A stretch of DNA of 64,000 bases from Desulforamulus ruminis DSM 2154 (GTDB lineage: Bacteria > Bacillota > Desulfotomaculia > Desulfotomaculales > Desulfotomaculaceae). The first letter of the stretch is position 1. Each line of letters starts with the position of its first letter. The notes beneath the pieces are model-generated. The model saw only the letters and a program-made list of their open reading frames with translations. It searched no databases and was not told where the DNA came from. Positions 44,353-62,785 of the stretch are shown here, piece after piece. The translations under genes were made by a program, and so were the position numbers. The DNA is taken from positions 930,001 through 994,000 of the forward strand of contig NC_015589.1 in NCBI RefSeq assembly GCF_000215085.1. The letters are read 5' to 3'.

Positions 44353-45186
44353 CTACTGATTGTTTTCTGAAATCTTTTGGGAAAGCTGTTGATTTCTTTC
44401 TTTTAAGTGGTTTAAGAGCTGGGGCAGCAGCTCCTGAATTTTCGCTTCATCGTTGGAATTTACAGCCTCGGCCAATTGAGACCTCAGATTATCCTTTGGA
44501 GCAAAGTTGCCTTTTATATTAAGACCCTGGGCTTTTAACTGCTCCCGAGCCTCTTCGGCAGTAATCTCCCCGTTCTTCTCGCTTTCTTTAATGGCCTGCA
44601 TTTTAGCCTTGTCTTCATCGGAAAGCTGTTTTCCCGGATTACGGAAACCAAACTGAATACCCAAGGCCTTTAACTGCTCCCGAGCCTCTTCGGCAGTAAT
44701 CTCCCCGTTCTTTTCATTTTCTTTAATGGCTTGTATTTTAGCCTTGTCCTCATCAGAAAGTTGTTTGCCGGATTTATGGTTTCCTTTAAACTGAATGCCC
44801 AGGGCCTTTAATTGCTCCACTGCTTCTTCGGCAGTAATTTCCCCGTTCTTTTCAGCTTCTCTTAACGCCTGCATTTTGGTCTTGGTTTCATCGGAAAGTT
44901 CAGGTTTTTGTTCTTTTCCATTTACAGGGGCTTTTTCTCTCAGCTCCTTAAGCAGTTGTTCCTGTTCCGTAAGAGCGTTCTGCCAATCACTTAAACTCTC
45001 CGGTGTATATTTGCTGACCAGTTCCAGCATTTTAGATTGAGATTGGGCATTGCGCTGGTGAAAGGCAAATCCTTTTTTGACGGATGTATCTCCCGTGGTG
45101 CTTTCATCCGCGGCAAAAGAAGCAATCGGTGCCACCAGGGACAAAGCCAAAGCAGTGGATAATACTTTGATTTTCCAGTTATTCAT
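44353..45186 (-). CDS. Secreted protein with three ~40-residue SHOCT/DUF2680-like repeats
   Basis: A 277-aa exported protein. The signal peptide (KIKVLSTALALSLVAPIASFA) is followed by ~90 residues of helical linker. Three near-identical units follow, built on LSDEDKAKIQAIKENEKNGE then ITAEEAREQLKALGIQF. A C-terminal Leu/Gln-rich helix with a Ser-Asn-Asp turn ends it. The units recall DUF2680/SHOCT helical hairpins (NGEITAEEA turn). The DNA units are also highly alike, so the repeats arose by recent tandem duplication. ATG 45186 is eight bases after GGAGG. It lies upstream of the two-component genes and may be part of their response. Confidence 0.75.
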   Translation of the reverse strand: MNNWKIKVLSTALALSLVAPIASFAADESTTGDTSVKKGFAFHQRNAQSQSKMLELVSKYTPESLSDWQNALTEQEQLLKELREKAPVNGKEQKPELSDETKTKMQALREAEKNGEITAEEAVEQLKALGIQFKGNHKSGKQLSDEDKAKIQAIKENEKNGEITAEEAREQLKALGIQFGFRNPGKQLSDEDKAKMQAIKESEKNGEITAEEAREQLKAQGLNIKGNFAPKDNLRSQLAEAVNSNDEAKIQELLPQLLNHLKERNQQLSQKISENNQ

Positions 45187-45469
45187 GATCATGTCCTCCT
45201 TAAAAAAGATTAAGTGATTCCCTTTACAATGTACAAGTAGAATACGGAACAATTATCAAGAAATTGTGGGAAATTATGAAATATAAGAAAGGGAATTTGC
45301 GCTAACATCTAGAAAGTAAGAAGAATGAATTATTAGATAACTTAAAAGTTATTGTAAAAAAATTAAAAAAATTTTAAAAGCGTTAAGTTTTAATGGAATT
45401 TAACCGTTGTATTTATTAAATAAGATTAATATAATAAGAAAAATTCACCAAGAAGAGGGGATTTTCATA

Positions 45470-48108: not shown

Positions 48109-49332
48109 TTAATCCTGGTAGTGCAGCAGCCGTCGTTCACCTTCTAGAGCGCGAATTTTTGTAACATCCTGGCTGACTTCCATGGTGCCGATATATTCTC
48201 CTTGATCATTTCTTAAGGCAAAGTAACGGATATGAATAAAGGAACCGTTTAATACCAGCCAGAATTCCGCCGTACTGTGTTTGCCCCTTTTAAAGTCCGT
48301 AAGAATTTTCTCTACCACGTGGACACTTTCGGGCGGATGACAGTTTTGCACCTTGCGTCCAATAATGGATTTGGTACGGGTGAAGATTCTCTCCTGACCC
48401 TGGGAGAAATATTGAACGGTATCGTTTTTATCTACAAAAGTAATATCAATGGGAAGATGGGTTAAAATGCTGTTGATTTCCTTGGCGCTAAGATAGCCGG
48501 TAGCCAAAGCCAGCTTTTCGGTACCGGTGTGGAGGGGTTCTTTTGCAGCCCCCTCCTTTGCTTGCCAGAGGTCAGCCTGGGGACGAGAAAACACAACACC
48601 AAATTCAATATCCTGTTCCTTGATTTCCGCCCATTCCCCTTCAGTAAGAGCTTCCATCATCATGGGAGTTAAGATATTTTCTTCCTTAAAGACCATCTCC
48701 AAAACTTTATGCTTCATGGCTTCATAACGGGTCTTGAAGGACTCCAGGTCGCCCTTATTCCCTGGAGAGGGGATAAAGGCAGCCAGTTGCTTGATAAGAT
48801 CCCTGATTTCATCATCTACAGACCACATCACAGAGGGGGGGCCGGTAATGTTGTGCCTTTCCAAATAAGGGAATAAAATATTTTCCTTTTTAGAGTAATG
48901 CTTGTCCAGGTTTTCCTTGAAAAAGGTGATCCTTTCCTGCAAGTACTTCCAAAGATCTTCCGCTTCATGATCCCACTGACTTAATAGGCTAATTTTTTGA
49001 TCCAATTCTTCAAGAATTTTTTGGATTTCGTGATTCTCATGCTTTAAAGAGTACAGAGGGTGACCAGGGATTAATTCAGGTTTTTTATTCTCCATAAGGG
49101 CGTCTTTAAACACAGCGGCATGCACATCACAAAGCTTGGTGATCTCCTCTGGGGAGATCCCTTCTTGTATAAGAGATTGTTCCATGTTGGCAATTTCAGT
49201 GGCGTCCACATCTTTAATCAGACTTTGGAATCGTTCTTTCACTTCATCAGGGTCTTTTCCTTTATGCAGGTCCCGAATGATATCCTTTAATATTTTTTGC
49301 TTATATTCTTTACTTTGCAAATACTCGCTCAT
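48109..49332 (-). CDS. DUF438-hemerythrin-PAS protein
   Basis: A 407-aa cytoplasmic sensor-like protein. The N-terminal DUF438 (about 1-90) is followed by a hemerythrin HHE domain with H-x-H/E ligands (LKHENHEI; LDKHYSKKENILFPYLERH; MKHKVLEMVFKEENIL). A C-terminal PAS domain (~290-395, ITFVDKNDTVQYFSQG; AEFWLVLNGSFIHIRYFAL) ends it. The family is found in anaerobes and is thought to sense oxygen, NO or redox state through a di-iron centre; the output is unknown. ATG 49332 follows GGGGGATTTTT. Confidence 0.9.
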   Translation of the reverse strand: MSEYLQSKEYKQKILKDIIRDLHKGKDPDEVKERFQSLIKDVDATEIANMEQSLIQEGISPEEITKLCDVHAAVFKDALMENKKPELIPGHPLYSLKHENHEIQKILEELDQKISLLSQWDHEAEDLWKYLQERITFFKENLDKHYSKKENILFPYLERHNITGPPSVMWSVDDEIRDLIKQLAAFIPSPGNKGDLESFKTRYEAMKHKVLEMVFKEENILTPMMMEALTEGEWAEIKEQDIEFGVVFSRPQADLWQAKEGAAKEPLHTGTEKLALATGYLSAKEINSILTHLPIDITFVDKNDTVQYFSQGQERIFTRTKSIIGRKVQNCHPPESVHVVEKILTDFKRGKHSTAEFWLVLNGSFIHIRYFALRNDQGEYIGTMEVSQDVTKIRALEGERRLLHYQD

Positions 49333-49438: not shown

Positions 49439-49711
49439 TTAATCAGCACACTTACAGTTTTGGCAGCAGGGGCACCTGACGCCAAAGCATTTCCGGCAAA
49501 CTCCGGTCTGCTCGGGTAAAGCGGTACCTCCGCATTTCAAACAGGTTTGCCCCCGGTTTAAAACCAATTCAGCCAGCCGGATGGCTAAAACATCCCCGTT
49601 ATTAAACCGAACCGTAACCAACTTACTGGTGATACAACTTCCTAAAGCAATACCCGGTTTCTGGGAAGGAACATGAAATACCCGGTCATTAAAATTGGGG
49701 AATGATTCCAT
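49439..49711 (-). CDS. Small Cys-rich protein, 90 aa, divergent from the radical-SAM locus
   Basis: No family recognised. An N-terminal beta-like half (GIALGSCITSKLVTVRFNNGDVLAIRLAELV) is followed by a zinc-ribbon-like region with CxxC at 57/60 and 72/75. The metallothionein-like tail has Cys at 80, 82, 83, 86 and 88. It has a perfect GGAGGTG SD. It is divergent from the Cys-rich repeat gene with 152 bp between starts. Either a metal-binding accessory factor or a second modifiable Cys-rich substrate is possible. Confidence 0.6.
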   Translation of the reverse strand: MESFPNFNDRVFHVPSQKPGIALGSCITSKLVTVRFNNGDVLAIRLAELVLNRGQTCLKCGGTALPEQTGVCRKCFGVRCPCCQNCKCAD

Positions 49712-49796
49712 AGGGTAACACCTCCACTACAGCATATTCAGCAAAATAATTTATGTTTACAGGACCTCTCACGGTAGGGCCCAACTCCTTCATGGA

Positions 49797-49824
49797 ACCA
49801 AATAAATAACCTGGGCATACCATA
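49797..49824 (+). promoter_or_regulatory. Possible SigK-type (mother-cell) promoter
   Basis: ACC (49797-49799) then 16 bases then CATACCATA (49816-49824) fits the AC-N16-CATANNNTA pattern known for sporulation sigma-K. It lies about 40 bp before the GTG of the Cys-rich repeat gene. Short motifs occur by chance, so this is only suggestive. Confidence 0.45.
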
Positions 49825-49863
49825 ATAATGAGGAAAAAATATCCAGACAAGGAGTGAAACAAG

Positions 49864-50511
49864 GTGTTTGAGCAATTACAGGCTAGCCAAGGTAAGAACA
49901 TGGTTGTCGAGCTAGTGAACGGCAGAAAGATATCCGGTACCATTGTGAGTGTTAATCAGGAGTACATTCGCATACAAGCCGAAGAGGGAGCTTGTACAAT
50001 TCCAATGAACGCCATTCAAATTATTTGGGAATCTCAAAATCCTTCGATAACCGAAGAAAATATGAGATATGTTGCTGAACAACTAAGAAATGATGAGAAT
50101 AACCGCATCAACTGTACATCCGTACCCGGTTTTACCTGCGTTAACCGGTACGTATGCATCCCTCCGGACAACTGTGTTTTCACCTTTGCTTGTCCCGGCG
50201 TTTATTCCCCTGCTCCGCCCCAGGGTGGTTGCCCGGCCTTCCAATTCCAGCAGCCCTGCGGTTTCCAATTTGGCTGCATACCGTTCCTGTTCCAATGCGG
50301 CTTTCGCTTCCAACAGCCCTGCAGGCCTTTCCAATTTAATTGTTCGCCCTTCTTTTTCCAGTGCGGTTCCCGCTTCGGGTGTGGACCCTTCCAATTCCAA
50401 CAGCCCTGCACTTTCCAATTTGGCTGCACCGCTCCCGGAGGTTTTGCCTGCCCCGGCCAAGCTTTTATAGGTATTGTCGGGCCCATGGCAGGAAACGACG
50501 GGGGAGAATAA
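49864..50511 (+). CDS. Cys/Phe/Gln-rich repeat protein with LSm-like N-terminus: candidate precursor of a modified polypeptide
   Basis: A 215-aa two-part protein. Residues ~12-55 (MVVELVNGRKISGTIVSVNQ, ending PMNAIQIIW) look like a small LSm/Sm-type beta-barrel. After a linker, residues 84-196 hold 16 Cys. The core 123-196 repeats Cys every 6-9 residues, separated by FQF/FRF/FLF and QQP (CGFQFGC, FQFQQPC, RPFQFNC). It starts at GTG with AAGGAG. Thirty bases later comes a radical SAM/SPASM gene, so the repeats are likely modified. It could be a RiPP-type precursor or a cross-linked spore-coat polymer. No known family matched. Confidence 0.75.
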   Translation: MFEQLQASQGKNMVVELVNGRKISGTIVSVNQEYIRIQAEEGACTIPMNAIQIIWESQNPSITEENMRYVAEQLRNDENNRINCTSVPGFTCVNRYVCIPPDNCVFTFACPGVYSPAPPQGGCPAFQFQQPCGFQFGCIPFLFQCGFRFQQPCRPFQFNCSPFFFQCGSRFGCGPFQFQQPCTFQFGCTAPGGFACPGQAFIGIVGPMAGNDGGE

Positions 50512-50541
50512 GAGGAAAAATAGTACAAAGGAAATATAAAA

Positions 50542-51801
50542 ATGAAAATAAACCAAAATATTTTTCTGGATCAGCTAGCAATCTTTATCAGGGAGTACAC
50601 CGGAAGCAATCCCGGGTACTCTCCGCAACTTCTTGCCGAGATGCTGGCAAGTAAATTTCATATTCCGGTTGAGGATGCCATCAAACTGGTAGTTTATGTG
50701 GAAAAAGAACTTCGGGCGGGAAAACTGGGTTTAGCTGCCATTGAGTTAAACCTGACTTTTAACTGCAATCTAACTTGTGAGTATTGTTTTGTACATTGCA
50801 AAAGTCCTGAAGACAGGATGAGCTTTGAAACCGCCCGGAAAGCCATTGATTTATTAATGGAGCATGCGGTTTTTCCCGTGGTGGTGATTACCCTTATCGG
50901 GGGTGAACCCCTGCTGGAATTTGAATTAATAAAAAAGATCGTTCCATACGCCAAGGAAGCTGCCCAAAAGTGTAACCGGGAAGTGACCTGGGCTATCACA
51001 ACCAATGGAACCTTAATCAATGAAAAAATTTTACAATATTTTGCTCAAAACCAAATGAATATGCTTCTTAGTATTGACGGGGGACCGGAGACACACGACC
51101 GGTATCGTAGAACTAAGAGCGGGGAGGGCACCTGGCATAGGATTACCAGTTTAATTCCCCTAATAAAAAAATATCAACCTTGGCTAGGTGCCAGAATGAC
51201 TGTCAGCACCGAAGCGGTAAATAATATGGTGGAGGATTTCCGGCAAATTGTAAATATGGGAATTAACCAGATGATCATTGCTCCGGCGCAAGGGGAAAAG
51301 ACCTGGACCATGGAGCAAATAAAACAATACGGGTTAAATCTTATGGAGATCACCCGGCAATACCACCGGTTAAAGCAGCAGGGAGTTCCCTTGTTTATCG
51401 AGGAATTGGAAAAGAGTGAAAATGAATTTTTGGGCTGGGGATGCCGTGCCGGGAGCACCTCCTTGGCCATCGCTCCCAATGGGGACGTAAGCCCCTGTTC
51501 AAAATTGTTGGGTCTAAACAGCCAAGAGGGAAAACACATTATCGGTAACGTTAATACGGGAATTCAGGAAGATTTATTAAATCTTTTTAAAAATCCTGTG
51601 GGCCAGCAGCCGCAACATTGCAAAGGCTGCTCCCGTCCTTGCGCCGGGGGATGCTATGCCGTGAACTTTGAACAAACCGGGGATTTCTTTAGGCCGTCCG
51701 AAGAGAATTGCCTCTTTTGGGTGGTTTGCCAGGAGGCAAAAAGATTATCGGGCATCCTGAGGATGAGAGAGATGGCCCGGCGGGAAAAGCAATGGTTTTA
51801 A
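50542..51801 (+). CDS. Radical SAM/SPASM peptide-modifying enzyme
   Basis: A 419-aa maturase. The SAM-cluster motif C75-x3-C79-x2-C82 (NCNLTCEYC) follows a 70-residue helical N-terminus. LIGGEPLLEFELI is the SAM-contacting GGEP segment. The C-terminal SPASM region has Cys in GWGCRAG, GDVSPCSKLLG, HCKGCSRPCAGGCYAVNFE and ENCLFWVVC, enough for two extra [4Fe-4S] clusters. The family makes thioether, C-C or other cross-links on Cys-rich ribosomal peptides. It resembles the Cys-rich-peptide maturase group (CcpM-like) by layout. It follows its presumed substrate in one operon and ends at a hairpin terminator. Confidence 0.88.
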   Translation: MKINQNIFLDQLAIFIREYTGSNPGYSPQLLAEMLASKFHIPVEDAIKLVVYVEKELRAGKLGLAAIELNLTFNCNLTCEYCFVHCKSPEDRMSFETARKAIDLLMEHAVFPVVVITLIGGEPLLEFELIKKIVPYAKEAAQKCNREVTWAITTNGTLINEKILQYFAQNQMNMLLSIDGGPETHDRYRRTKSGEGTWHRITSLIPLIKKYQPWLGARMTVSTEAVNNMVEDFRQIVNMGINQMIIAPAQGEKTWTMEQIKQYGLNLMEITRQYHRLKQQGVPLFIEELEKSENEFLGWGCRAGSTSLAIAPNGDVSPCSKLLGLNSQEGKHIIGNVNTGIQEDLLNLFKNPVGQQPQHCKGCSRPCAGGCYAVNFEQTGDFFRPSEENCLFWVVCQEAKRLSGILRMREMARREKQWF

Positions 51802-62389: not shown

Positions 62390-62428
62390 TAATACGGAAC
62401 CCGGCTCCCTCCAGGGGCCTTTTTTTAA
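62390..62428 (+). terminator. Orphan + strand terminator-like hairpin
   Basis: GGCTCCC-TCCA-GGGGCC then TTTTTTT. A TATAAT lies only ~10 bases upstream (62387-62393); no + strand gene ends here, so its role is unclear. Confidence 0.45.
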
Positions 62429-62496
62429 TTTTCTACACCATATCCACCACAACCACAGCCACCGCCGCAACCCCCACCGCATCCGTAGCTCACCAT
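62425..62496 (-). CDS. Tiny Gly/Cys-rich peptide gene, 23 aa
   Basis: The peptide contains five Cys in a Gly-rich frame (SYGCGGGCGGGCGCGG is its core). It starts ATG 62496 after GGAAGGGGCATGC. The upstream GTAACA-N16-CATATTAT repeats the pattern of neighbouring small genes. Probably a spore-coat-type microprotein; the Cys/Gly pattern also recalls metal-binding peptides. Too short for family proof. Confidence 0.55.
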   Translation of the reverse strand: MVSYGCGGGCGGGCGCGGYGVEN

Positions 62497-62671: not shown

Positions 62672-62785
62672 TTACTTACTGTTACATCCGTAACCGTAGC
62701 CACTGCCTCCAAGAAGCAGCAGGATAAGAATTAAGAAGATGATGAAAGCACAACTGTCATAGCAACCGCCATATCCGTAACTCAT
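62672..62785 (-). CDS. YjcZ-family sporulation microprotein, 37 aa
   Basis: The sequence SYGYGGCYDSCAFIIFLILI is followed by LLLLGGSGYGYGCNSK. This Gly-Tyr-Cys head, short membrane segment and Gly-Tyr tail is the YjcZ-type sporulation protein pattern. ATG 62785 has a perfect AAAGGAGG SD. GTAACA-N16-CATATTAT lies upstream. It is likely made in the mother cell and put in the spore envelope. Confidence 0.8.
   Translation of the reverse strand: MSYGYGGCYDSCAFIIFLILILLLLGGSGYGYGCNSK

Follow-up and report, generated by a model that had tools for sequence, protein, structure and literature searches.

We analyzed a window of 64,000 nucleotides from Desulforamulus ruminis DSM 2154 (contig NC_015589.1, positions 930,001 to 994,000 of the forward strand; the genome is 3.97 Mb in one contig) and studied two adjacent genes in it, one for a Cys-rich repeat protein, here called the precursor, and one for a radical S-adenosylmethionine (SAM) enzyme with a SPASM region, its candidate maturase (Table 1). 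The coordinates of the open reading frames (ORFs) agree with an initial annotation, made by a model from the sequence, in placing a 215-residue protein 30 bases upstream of the enzyme; across the loci measured, the gap is 2–4 bases in 11 of 12. The start given there for the system, 49439, needs correction, as a range from that position includes a distinct small ORF encoded on the opposite strand (49439–49711).

Table 1. Features of the precursor–maturase locus in the window and of the transporter genes at related loci (L numbers are our locus handles)
Feature	Coordinates	Strand	Details and basis
Sigma-K-type promoter-like site, AC-N17-CATACCATA	49797..49824	+	67 bases before start codon; pattern search
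Precursor (substrate) gene	49864..50511	+	215 aa, GTG start; ORF call
Predicted LSm/Hfq-like barrel head, residues 1–57	49864..50034	+	AlphaFold2, Foldseek, VIA-align; Pfam LSM match below cut-off
Predicted linker helix, residues 64–81	50053..50106	+	AlphaFold2, pLDDT ~56
Five-Cys segment, residues 84–110	50113..50193	+	Cys nearly invariant in alignment
Cys/Phe/Gln repeat core, residues 123–196, 11 Cys	50230..50451	+	Cys count, repeat statistics
Radical SAM/SPASM maturase gene	50542..51801	+	419 aa; ORF call
Radical SAM motif C75xxxC79xxC82	50764..50787	+	Sequence, alignment
SPASM region, seven invariant Cys, residues 301–390	51442..51711	+	Pfam, alignment
ABC-2 ATPase and permease ORFs	L018:6101-8045, L019:5533-7404, L017:7587-9421		Downstream of maturase; L018 pair confirmed by Pfam

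The precursor begins with what had been described as a beta-barrel-like head. In an AlphaFold2 model built from 13 sequences, residues 2–56 form a short helix and then five strands, with predicted local distance difference test (pLDDT) scores of 89–94 in the five ten-residue blocks of residues 1–50 and 73 in residues 51–60, while no confident structure was obtained from residue 81 onward. The predicted N-terminal helix and five-stranded barrel are those of the LSm/Sm fold, and a Foldseek search with the head returned 46 matches at E ≤ 0.001, all of the 50 matches listed being Hfq entries. The best solved match was Methanococcus jannaschii Hfq (VIA-align Z 10.6, root-mean-square deviation 0.9 Å over 54 residues), effectively tied in Z with a designed SH3-like small barrel (Z 10.2), and the fold alone therefore reveals no function. 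The sequence profiles stayed below their cut-offs for the window head, with 20.1 bits for Pfam LSM (PF01423; gathering score 23.4) and 21.2 bits for the RimP C-terminal SH3 model (cut-off 26.3); among the 16 precursors of our alignment, an LSM match at E ≤ 0.1 was found in 12 and an Hfq match in one. The head is not Hfq itself, as the window precursor matched none of the Hfq models and the Lys-His pair of the second Hfq motif is absent, the stretch at that place reading TIPMNAIQIIW with an invariant Pro. "LSm-like" is nevertheless the correct label for the predicted fold. The same genome carries a paralogue of 112 residues (L040:1492-1830, plus strand; G000:C1 near 526362) with an LSm-like head and one Cys, which matches Hfq weakly (18.7 bits, cut-off 27).

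The precursor is rich in Cys, 17 in all (residues 44, 84, 92, 98, 104, 110, 123, 132, 138, 145, 153, 160, 167, 173, 182, 188 and 196). The description of its core as eleven Cys in residues 123–196, at gaps of 6–9 and with FxF and QQP as spacers, held up on recounting (gaps 9, 6, 7, 8, 7, 7, 6, 9, 6 and 8; FxF at nine places, one of them, at 106, ahead of the core; QQP at three), and five more Cys at residues 84–110 had been missed. With the region ends set at Cys, the evenness of the nine inner core Cys was matched in none of 200,000 random placements. The repeat units are worded variously (CGPFQFGQP, CTAQYMQP, CFERFGQP, CRERFGPPPP), and we studied their composition in 22 of 23 precursors, leaving out L011 as near-identical to L010, against shuffles that ignore the kinship among the precursors. 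Phe or Tyr stands four residues after 49% of the Cys (shuffled 17 ± 2%) and five residues after 33% (16 ± 2%), so placed at +4, +5 or both in 242 of 312 short units, with 22 units lacking Phe and Tyr altogether; Pro directly precedes 31% of the Cys (16 ± 2%). In the window precursor, Asp or Glu occurs in one of the 15 inter-Cys segments. One of the aligned precursors matches Pfam Cornifin, a precursor of the cornified envelope of skin, at E 0.0008, which is a likeness of Gln/Pro/Cys repeats and is not taken as homology.

The CxxxCxxC motif and SPASM Cys set reported for the enzyme were confirmed. Pfam places it in the broad class, with Radical_SAM at 55.5 bits (gathering score 29.5) and SPASM at 26.8 (21.5), and its ten Cys, three of the radical SAM motif and seven of the SPASM region (residues 301, 319, 360, 363, 367, 371 and 390), do not vary in any of the 15 homologues aligned; alignments A2 and A4 exclude the broken enzyme of D. 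aquiferis. At the level of families, none of the best 25 of the 83 NCBIfam models matched by the window enzyme reached its cut-off: PapB (NF047865) scored 220.2 bits (cut-off 340), QhpD (TIGR03906) 174.9 (453), the Nif11-peptide maturase model 168 (519), SCIFF (TIGR03974) 165.5 (425), CcpM 156 (500), the CXXX-repeat maturase (TIGR04115) 133.7 (350) and the model of the Cys-every-fifth system (NF038107) 93.5 (600). All 15 aligned enzymes match the PapB, QhpD, Nif11-peptide and SCIFF models at E ≤ 1e-30. Among solved structures, the closest match is chain 5wgg (E 1.9e-35), the SCIFF enzyme CteB. No Pfam match to a PqqD-like recognition domain (RRE) appeared in the enzyme at E up to 1; in a weak AlphaFold2 model (mean pLDDT 59.7), its N-terminal 61 residues form three helices and no strands (pLDDT 61–88), and a profile comparison between the precursor head and the enzyme gave no similarity. 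A homologue 31% identical to the enzyme is encoded elsewhere in the host genome (L002). Within the searches made, the description of the system as undescribed holds reasonably well for the substrate and the setting: we find a known kind of enzyme with a new substrate architecture in a new setting.

The two genes travel together. Enzyme homologues (E ≤ 1e-60) and precursor homologues (E ≤ 1e-5) each occur in nine of 60 relatives, and the nine genomes are identical. Among 398 genomes across the phylum, scanned by scoring only the four to five top first-look candidates per genome and hence open to misses, the enzyme was found in five and the precursor, by profile, in four; in the fifth enzyme genome (G108), ORF reading revealed a divergent precursor upstream. 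Outside the phylum, where further relatives may exist, the enzyme was sought by peptide patterns and on plasmids, and the precursor in viral contigs. The peptide patterns gave 12 loci, all named Desulfotomaculum, Desulforamulus, Pelotomaculum or Desulfotomaculaceae; the plasmid search gave 38 records, all below 60% identity, with 12 of the 15 listed annotated as PeaB/QhpD; and 85 pattern matches in viral contigs contained no relative of the precursor. Counting seven further genomes from the peptide-pattern search, we obtained 19 enzyme loci on distinct contigs, and an ORF with head and Cys repeats lies immediately upstream of the enzyme in every one of them. In the 12 loci compared, some of them short, the precursor and the enzyme are the only genes common to all. 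This co-occurrence is strong support for the pairing of substrate and enzyme proposed in the initial annotation, which had named Cys-rich homologues regularly lacking the maturase as the observation that would speak against it. Five Cys-repeat copies indeed have no adjacent enzyme (L036 and L039 in genome G165, L038 in G425, L048 in G048 and L049 in G030), all in genomes that carry the enzyme. Desulforamulus aeronauticus DSM 10349 also carries the pair (L023). In Pelotomaculum propionicicum, one more Cys-repeat protein is encoded 31 bases after the maturase gene (L021:7295-8053, plus strand). In the D. aquiferis draft (L025/G007), one of the 19 loci, both genes are frame-shifted; we rejected gene decay and consider sequencing error likelier, because gyrB and yabG are also split in that draft. 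The orphan copy at L049 adjoins a gene for a DUF2935 protein (L049:309-1232, plus strand; 246.9 bits).

The region upstream of the precursor gene bears on the timing of expression. A strict pattern, AC-N(15-18)-CATANNNTA, was found upstream of six of the 23 precursor genes, in the same place each time. A looser pattern, with G also permitted at the last base and a spacing of 16 or 17, occurs between –61 and –70 before 18 of the 19 enzyme-linked genes, L029 being the exception, and within 200 bases upstream in three of seven others (the five orphans, the tandem copy and L040); for both patterns, the start codons of several precursors had been adjusted manually to fit the consensus of the alignment. 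The expectation from background density is 0.003 sites per 40 start positions, based on 28 sites in 366,440 strand positions with the precursor promoters themselves included. Because the looser pattern was chosen after seeing the data, it was applied unchanged to two control genes, each at 30 loci from the genomes with a match (39 for yabG and 41 for gyrB), with positions counted from where the profile match begins and not from a verified start codon. It was present at 17 of 30 loci of yabG, the positive control, 16 of these at –59 to –79, and at none of 30 loci of gyrB, which is often operon-internal and thus an easy negative control. By sequence, the precursor sites have the –35 AC and the CATA-type –10 box, 16–17 bases apart and near the start codon, of the sigma-K regulon. 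In a study of C. difficile, a YabG-like gene is positively controlled by sigma-K, the –35 is AC for sigma-K and ATA for sigma-E, one sigma-K promoter has the –10 CATATAAT, and a classical spacing of 16–18 bases is stated of a sigma-E-type promoter (PMC3789822). Judged by its promoter, the case for late mother-cell expression of the pair is strong, and the compartment is more certain than the sigma factor because sigma-E shares the –10.

Our favored reading, to which we give a probability of about 0.5, is that the precursor is a spore-layer protein made late, with Cys-x(3-4)-Phe/Tyr repeats that are converted to thioether rings and a barrel head that serves assembly or enzyme docking. The two genes would be switched on as an operon in the mother cell late in sporulation. 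The first would provide a long structural protein in which a helical linker connects an LSm/Hfq-like barrel head to a tail of Cys repeats, and the second an enzyme that would recognize the head or linker, proceed along the tail and bond the sulfur of each Cys to a carbon in a residue close by. The enzyme class makes thioether chemistry likely. If such bonds form, the commonest partner within reach would be an aromatic residue, with Gln as an alternative, and from the repeat statistics we hypothesize that the acceptor is the Phe or Tyr of the C-x(3-4)-[FY] unit, with the bond probably made to a carbon other than the alpha carbon. A small thioether ring would then arise from each repeat, leaving a rigid tail that reducing agents such as sulfide would not open. 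A location in a spore layer is likely from the conserved sigma-K-type promoter and the character of the repeats, in support of the spore envelope already suggested in the initial annotation. More speculatively, the head may form rings, as its predicted fold suggests, and would probably oligomerize like other LSm proteins, packing several tails into the layer.

We tentatively extend this reading, at somewhat less than even odds, to radical SAM chemistry as a builder of the spore layer: a repeat protein displayed on an LSm ring would become a chain of Cys-to-Phe/Tyr thioethers, with which sulfide-producing anaerobes would replace disulfide and dityrosine cross-links by bonds that resist reduction and need no oxygen. 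If true, the bond, between Cys and a benzylic carbon, would be of a new type, and a pathway of the type that makes ribosomally synthesized and posttranslationally modified peptides (RiPPs) would gain a structural, nonsecreted role, with a folded LSm domain as leader.

Several observations weigh against the thioether spore-layer reading. The promoter pattern was loosened after a first look at the data, and the linked genes are related, so that the 18 of 19 are not independent events. Aromatic residues are enriched also at –4 (40%) and –2 (33%) from the Cys, as well as at +3 (26%), and the direction of any link is therefore not settled. Asp and Glu, the acceptors known for PapB, occur in just 51 of 312 units, and an acceptor other than PapB's must therefore be assumed. 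The pair is missing from four of the nine members of the genus and is therefore not essential for sporulation. Finally, an ABC-2 transporter lies downstream of the enzyme in three of the 12 loci, all Pelotomaculum, with the ATPase directly after the enzyme in L018 and L019 and 0.5 kb after it in L017, and a permease ORF behind each; the statement that no exporter is adjacent was right for the window and does not extend to these loci.

The transporters would suit a secreted modified peptide, a bacteriocin or signal, in which the head is a large cleaved leader and the cross-linked core is exported, and the two-gene layout of precursor and maturase is typical of RiPP clusters. We consider this improbable: nine of the 12 loci, some of which are short, have no transporter directly downstream, the shared neighbors include no peptidase gene, and the five orphan precursors lie away from any transporter seen. 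Moreover, a late mother-cell promoter is ill-suited to secretion by a growing cell, and the long cores of variable repeat number resemble structural proteins. Unlikely, but to be taken more seriously, is disulfide locking of a Cys-rich spore protein, with the enzyme making some other change, such as turning Cys into formylglycine or forming a small number of specific links. Bacillus subtilis CotY, a 161-residue protein with 15 Cys, forms hexamers locked by disulfides (PMC4950064), and among the models hit by the enzyme is that of the anaerobic sulfatase maturase (109.8 bits, cut-off 349). The thioether-maturase models score far higher, however (220 bits for PapB). The hosts here are anaerobes, and the sulfide made by sulfate reducers opens disulfides. 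The head could instead belong to an RNA- or metal-binding regulator and the tail to a metal or iron–sulfur store made with the help of the enzyme, given that Hfq chains are the closest folds and the tail is rich in Cys. This we regard as very improbable, since the head has TIPMNAIQIIW and not the Lys-His of the second Hfq motif, the score of the designed barrel makes the fold no proof of an Hfq role, and metal sites of the CxC or CxxC type do not resemble Cys that stand 6–9 apart with aromatic residues between them.

In Bacillus, coat proteins are locked by disulfides and isopeptide bonds (PMC4950064). With a sigma-K-type promoter ahead of a repeat protein and a thioether-type radical enzyme, the question of how strict anaerobes, above all sulfide-bathed sulfate reducers, lock theirs becomes directly testable, and the toughening of spores without oxygen is a possible role of the pair in anaerobic spore-formers. 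Our search of the open-licence literature listed no paper evidently linking a spore-layer substrate to a radical SAM maturase. If the reading is true, RiPP-type radical chemistry reaches beyond small secreted peptides to structural proteins of ~200–340 residues, and the system might supply an enzyme accepting Phe/Tyr or Gln as sulfur acceptor.

The window and its relatives contained further features. The small ORF diverging from the precursor gene (49439–49711, minus strand) encodes 90 residues, is rich in Cys and has no family match; its relatives occur in six of 21 genomes searched, every one of the same genus, and we rejected it as part of the system as one of them is present in a genome without the pair (G006). 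Beyond it lies an ordinary DUF438–hemerythrin–PAS protein (48109–49332, minus strand), which also neighbors the D. aeronauticus locus, and at 44353–45252 (minus strand) a 299-residue protein of near-identical repeats of ~46 residues (LSDEDKAK..QAI..NEKNGEITAEEA..QLKA). Two tiny Gly/Cys/Tyr-rich ORFs, of 22 residues (62428–62493, minus strand) and 37 residues (62672–62785, minus strand), are each preceded by the same sigma-K-type pattern as the precursor gene and look like very small sporulation proteins similar to YjcZ; the longer one has no family match. Short ORFs, mostly 71-residue frames, match the YabG model weakly over positions 1 to 55–57 and below its cut-off, both in this genome (e.g., G000:C1:3161898-3162074, minus strand) and in relatives. 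A literature search for DUF2642 found nothing.

Among known systems, the PapA/PapB ranthipeptides come closest in enzyme family, as the best-scoring model, and share adjacent genes and repeated units of Cys-X3-acceptor in each precursor. PapB uses Asp/Glu in C-X3-D/E units and tolerates C-X0-6-D (PMC9413430). Few units of the precursors here hold Asp or Glu, and PapA has no LSm head. The second-best enzyme family, QhpD/PeaB of quinohemoprotein amine dehydrogenase maturation, puts thioethers into a real protein subunit and not a small secreted peptide, but its substrate is unrelated and it is not a spore system. The SCIFF (six-Cys) maturase is a clostridial thioether maturase, whose model cut-off is not reached here and whose peptides are short. 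The CXXX-repeat and Cys-every-fifth systems also pair a maturase with a Cys-repeat peptide, yet their cut-offs are not reached and the Cys here stand 6–9 apart, not at every fourth residue as in TIGR04115. Hfq and other LSm proteins share the fold of the head but differ in lacking the Cys-repeat tail and in having the second motif; we know of no LSm head in CotY or other Cys-rich spore-shell proteins. CotY of B. subtilis, which is Cys-rich, self-assembling and at the spore surface, differs in being disulfide-locked, with no radical SAM partner mentioned in the part of the source available to us (PMC4950064), and is by analogy the closest functional counterpart of the precursor.

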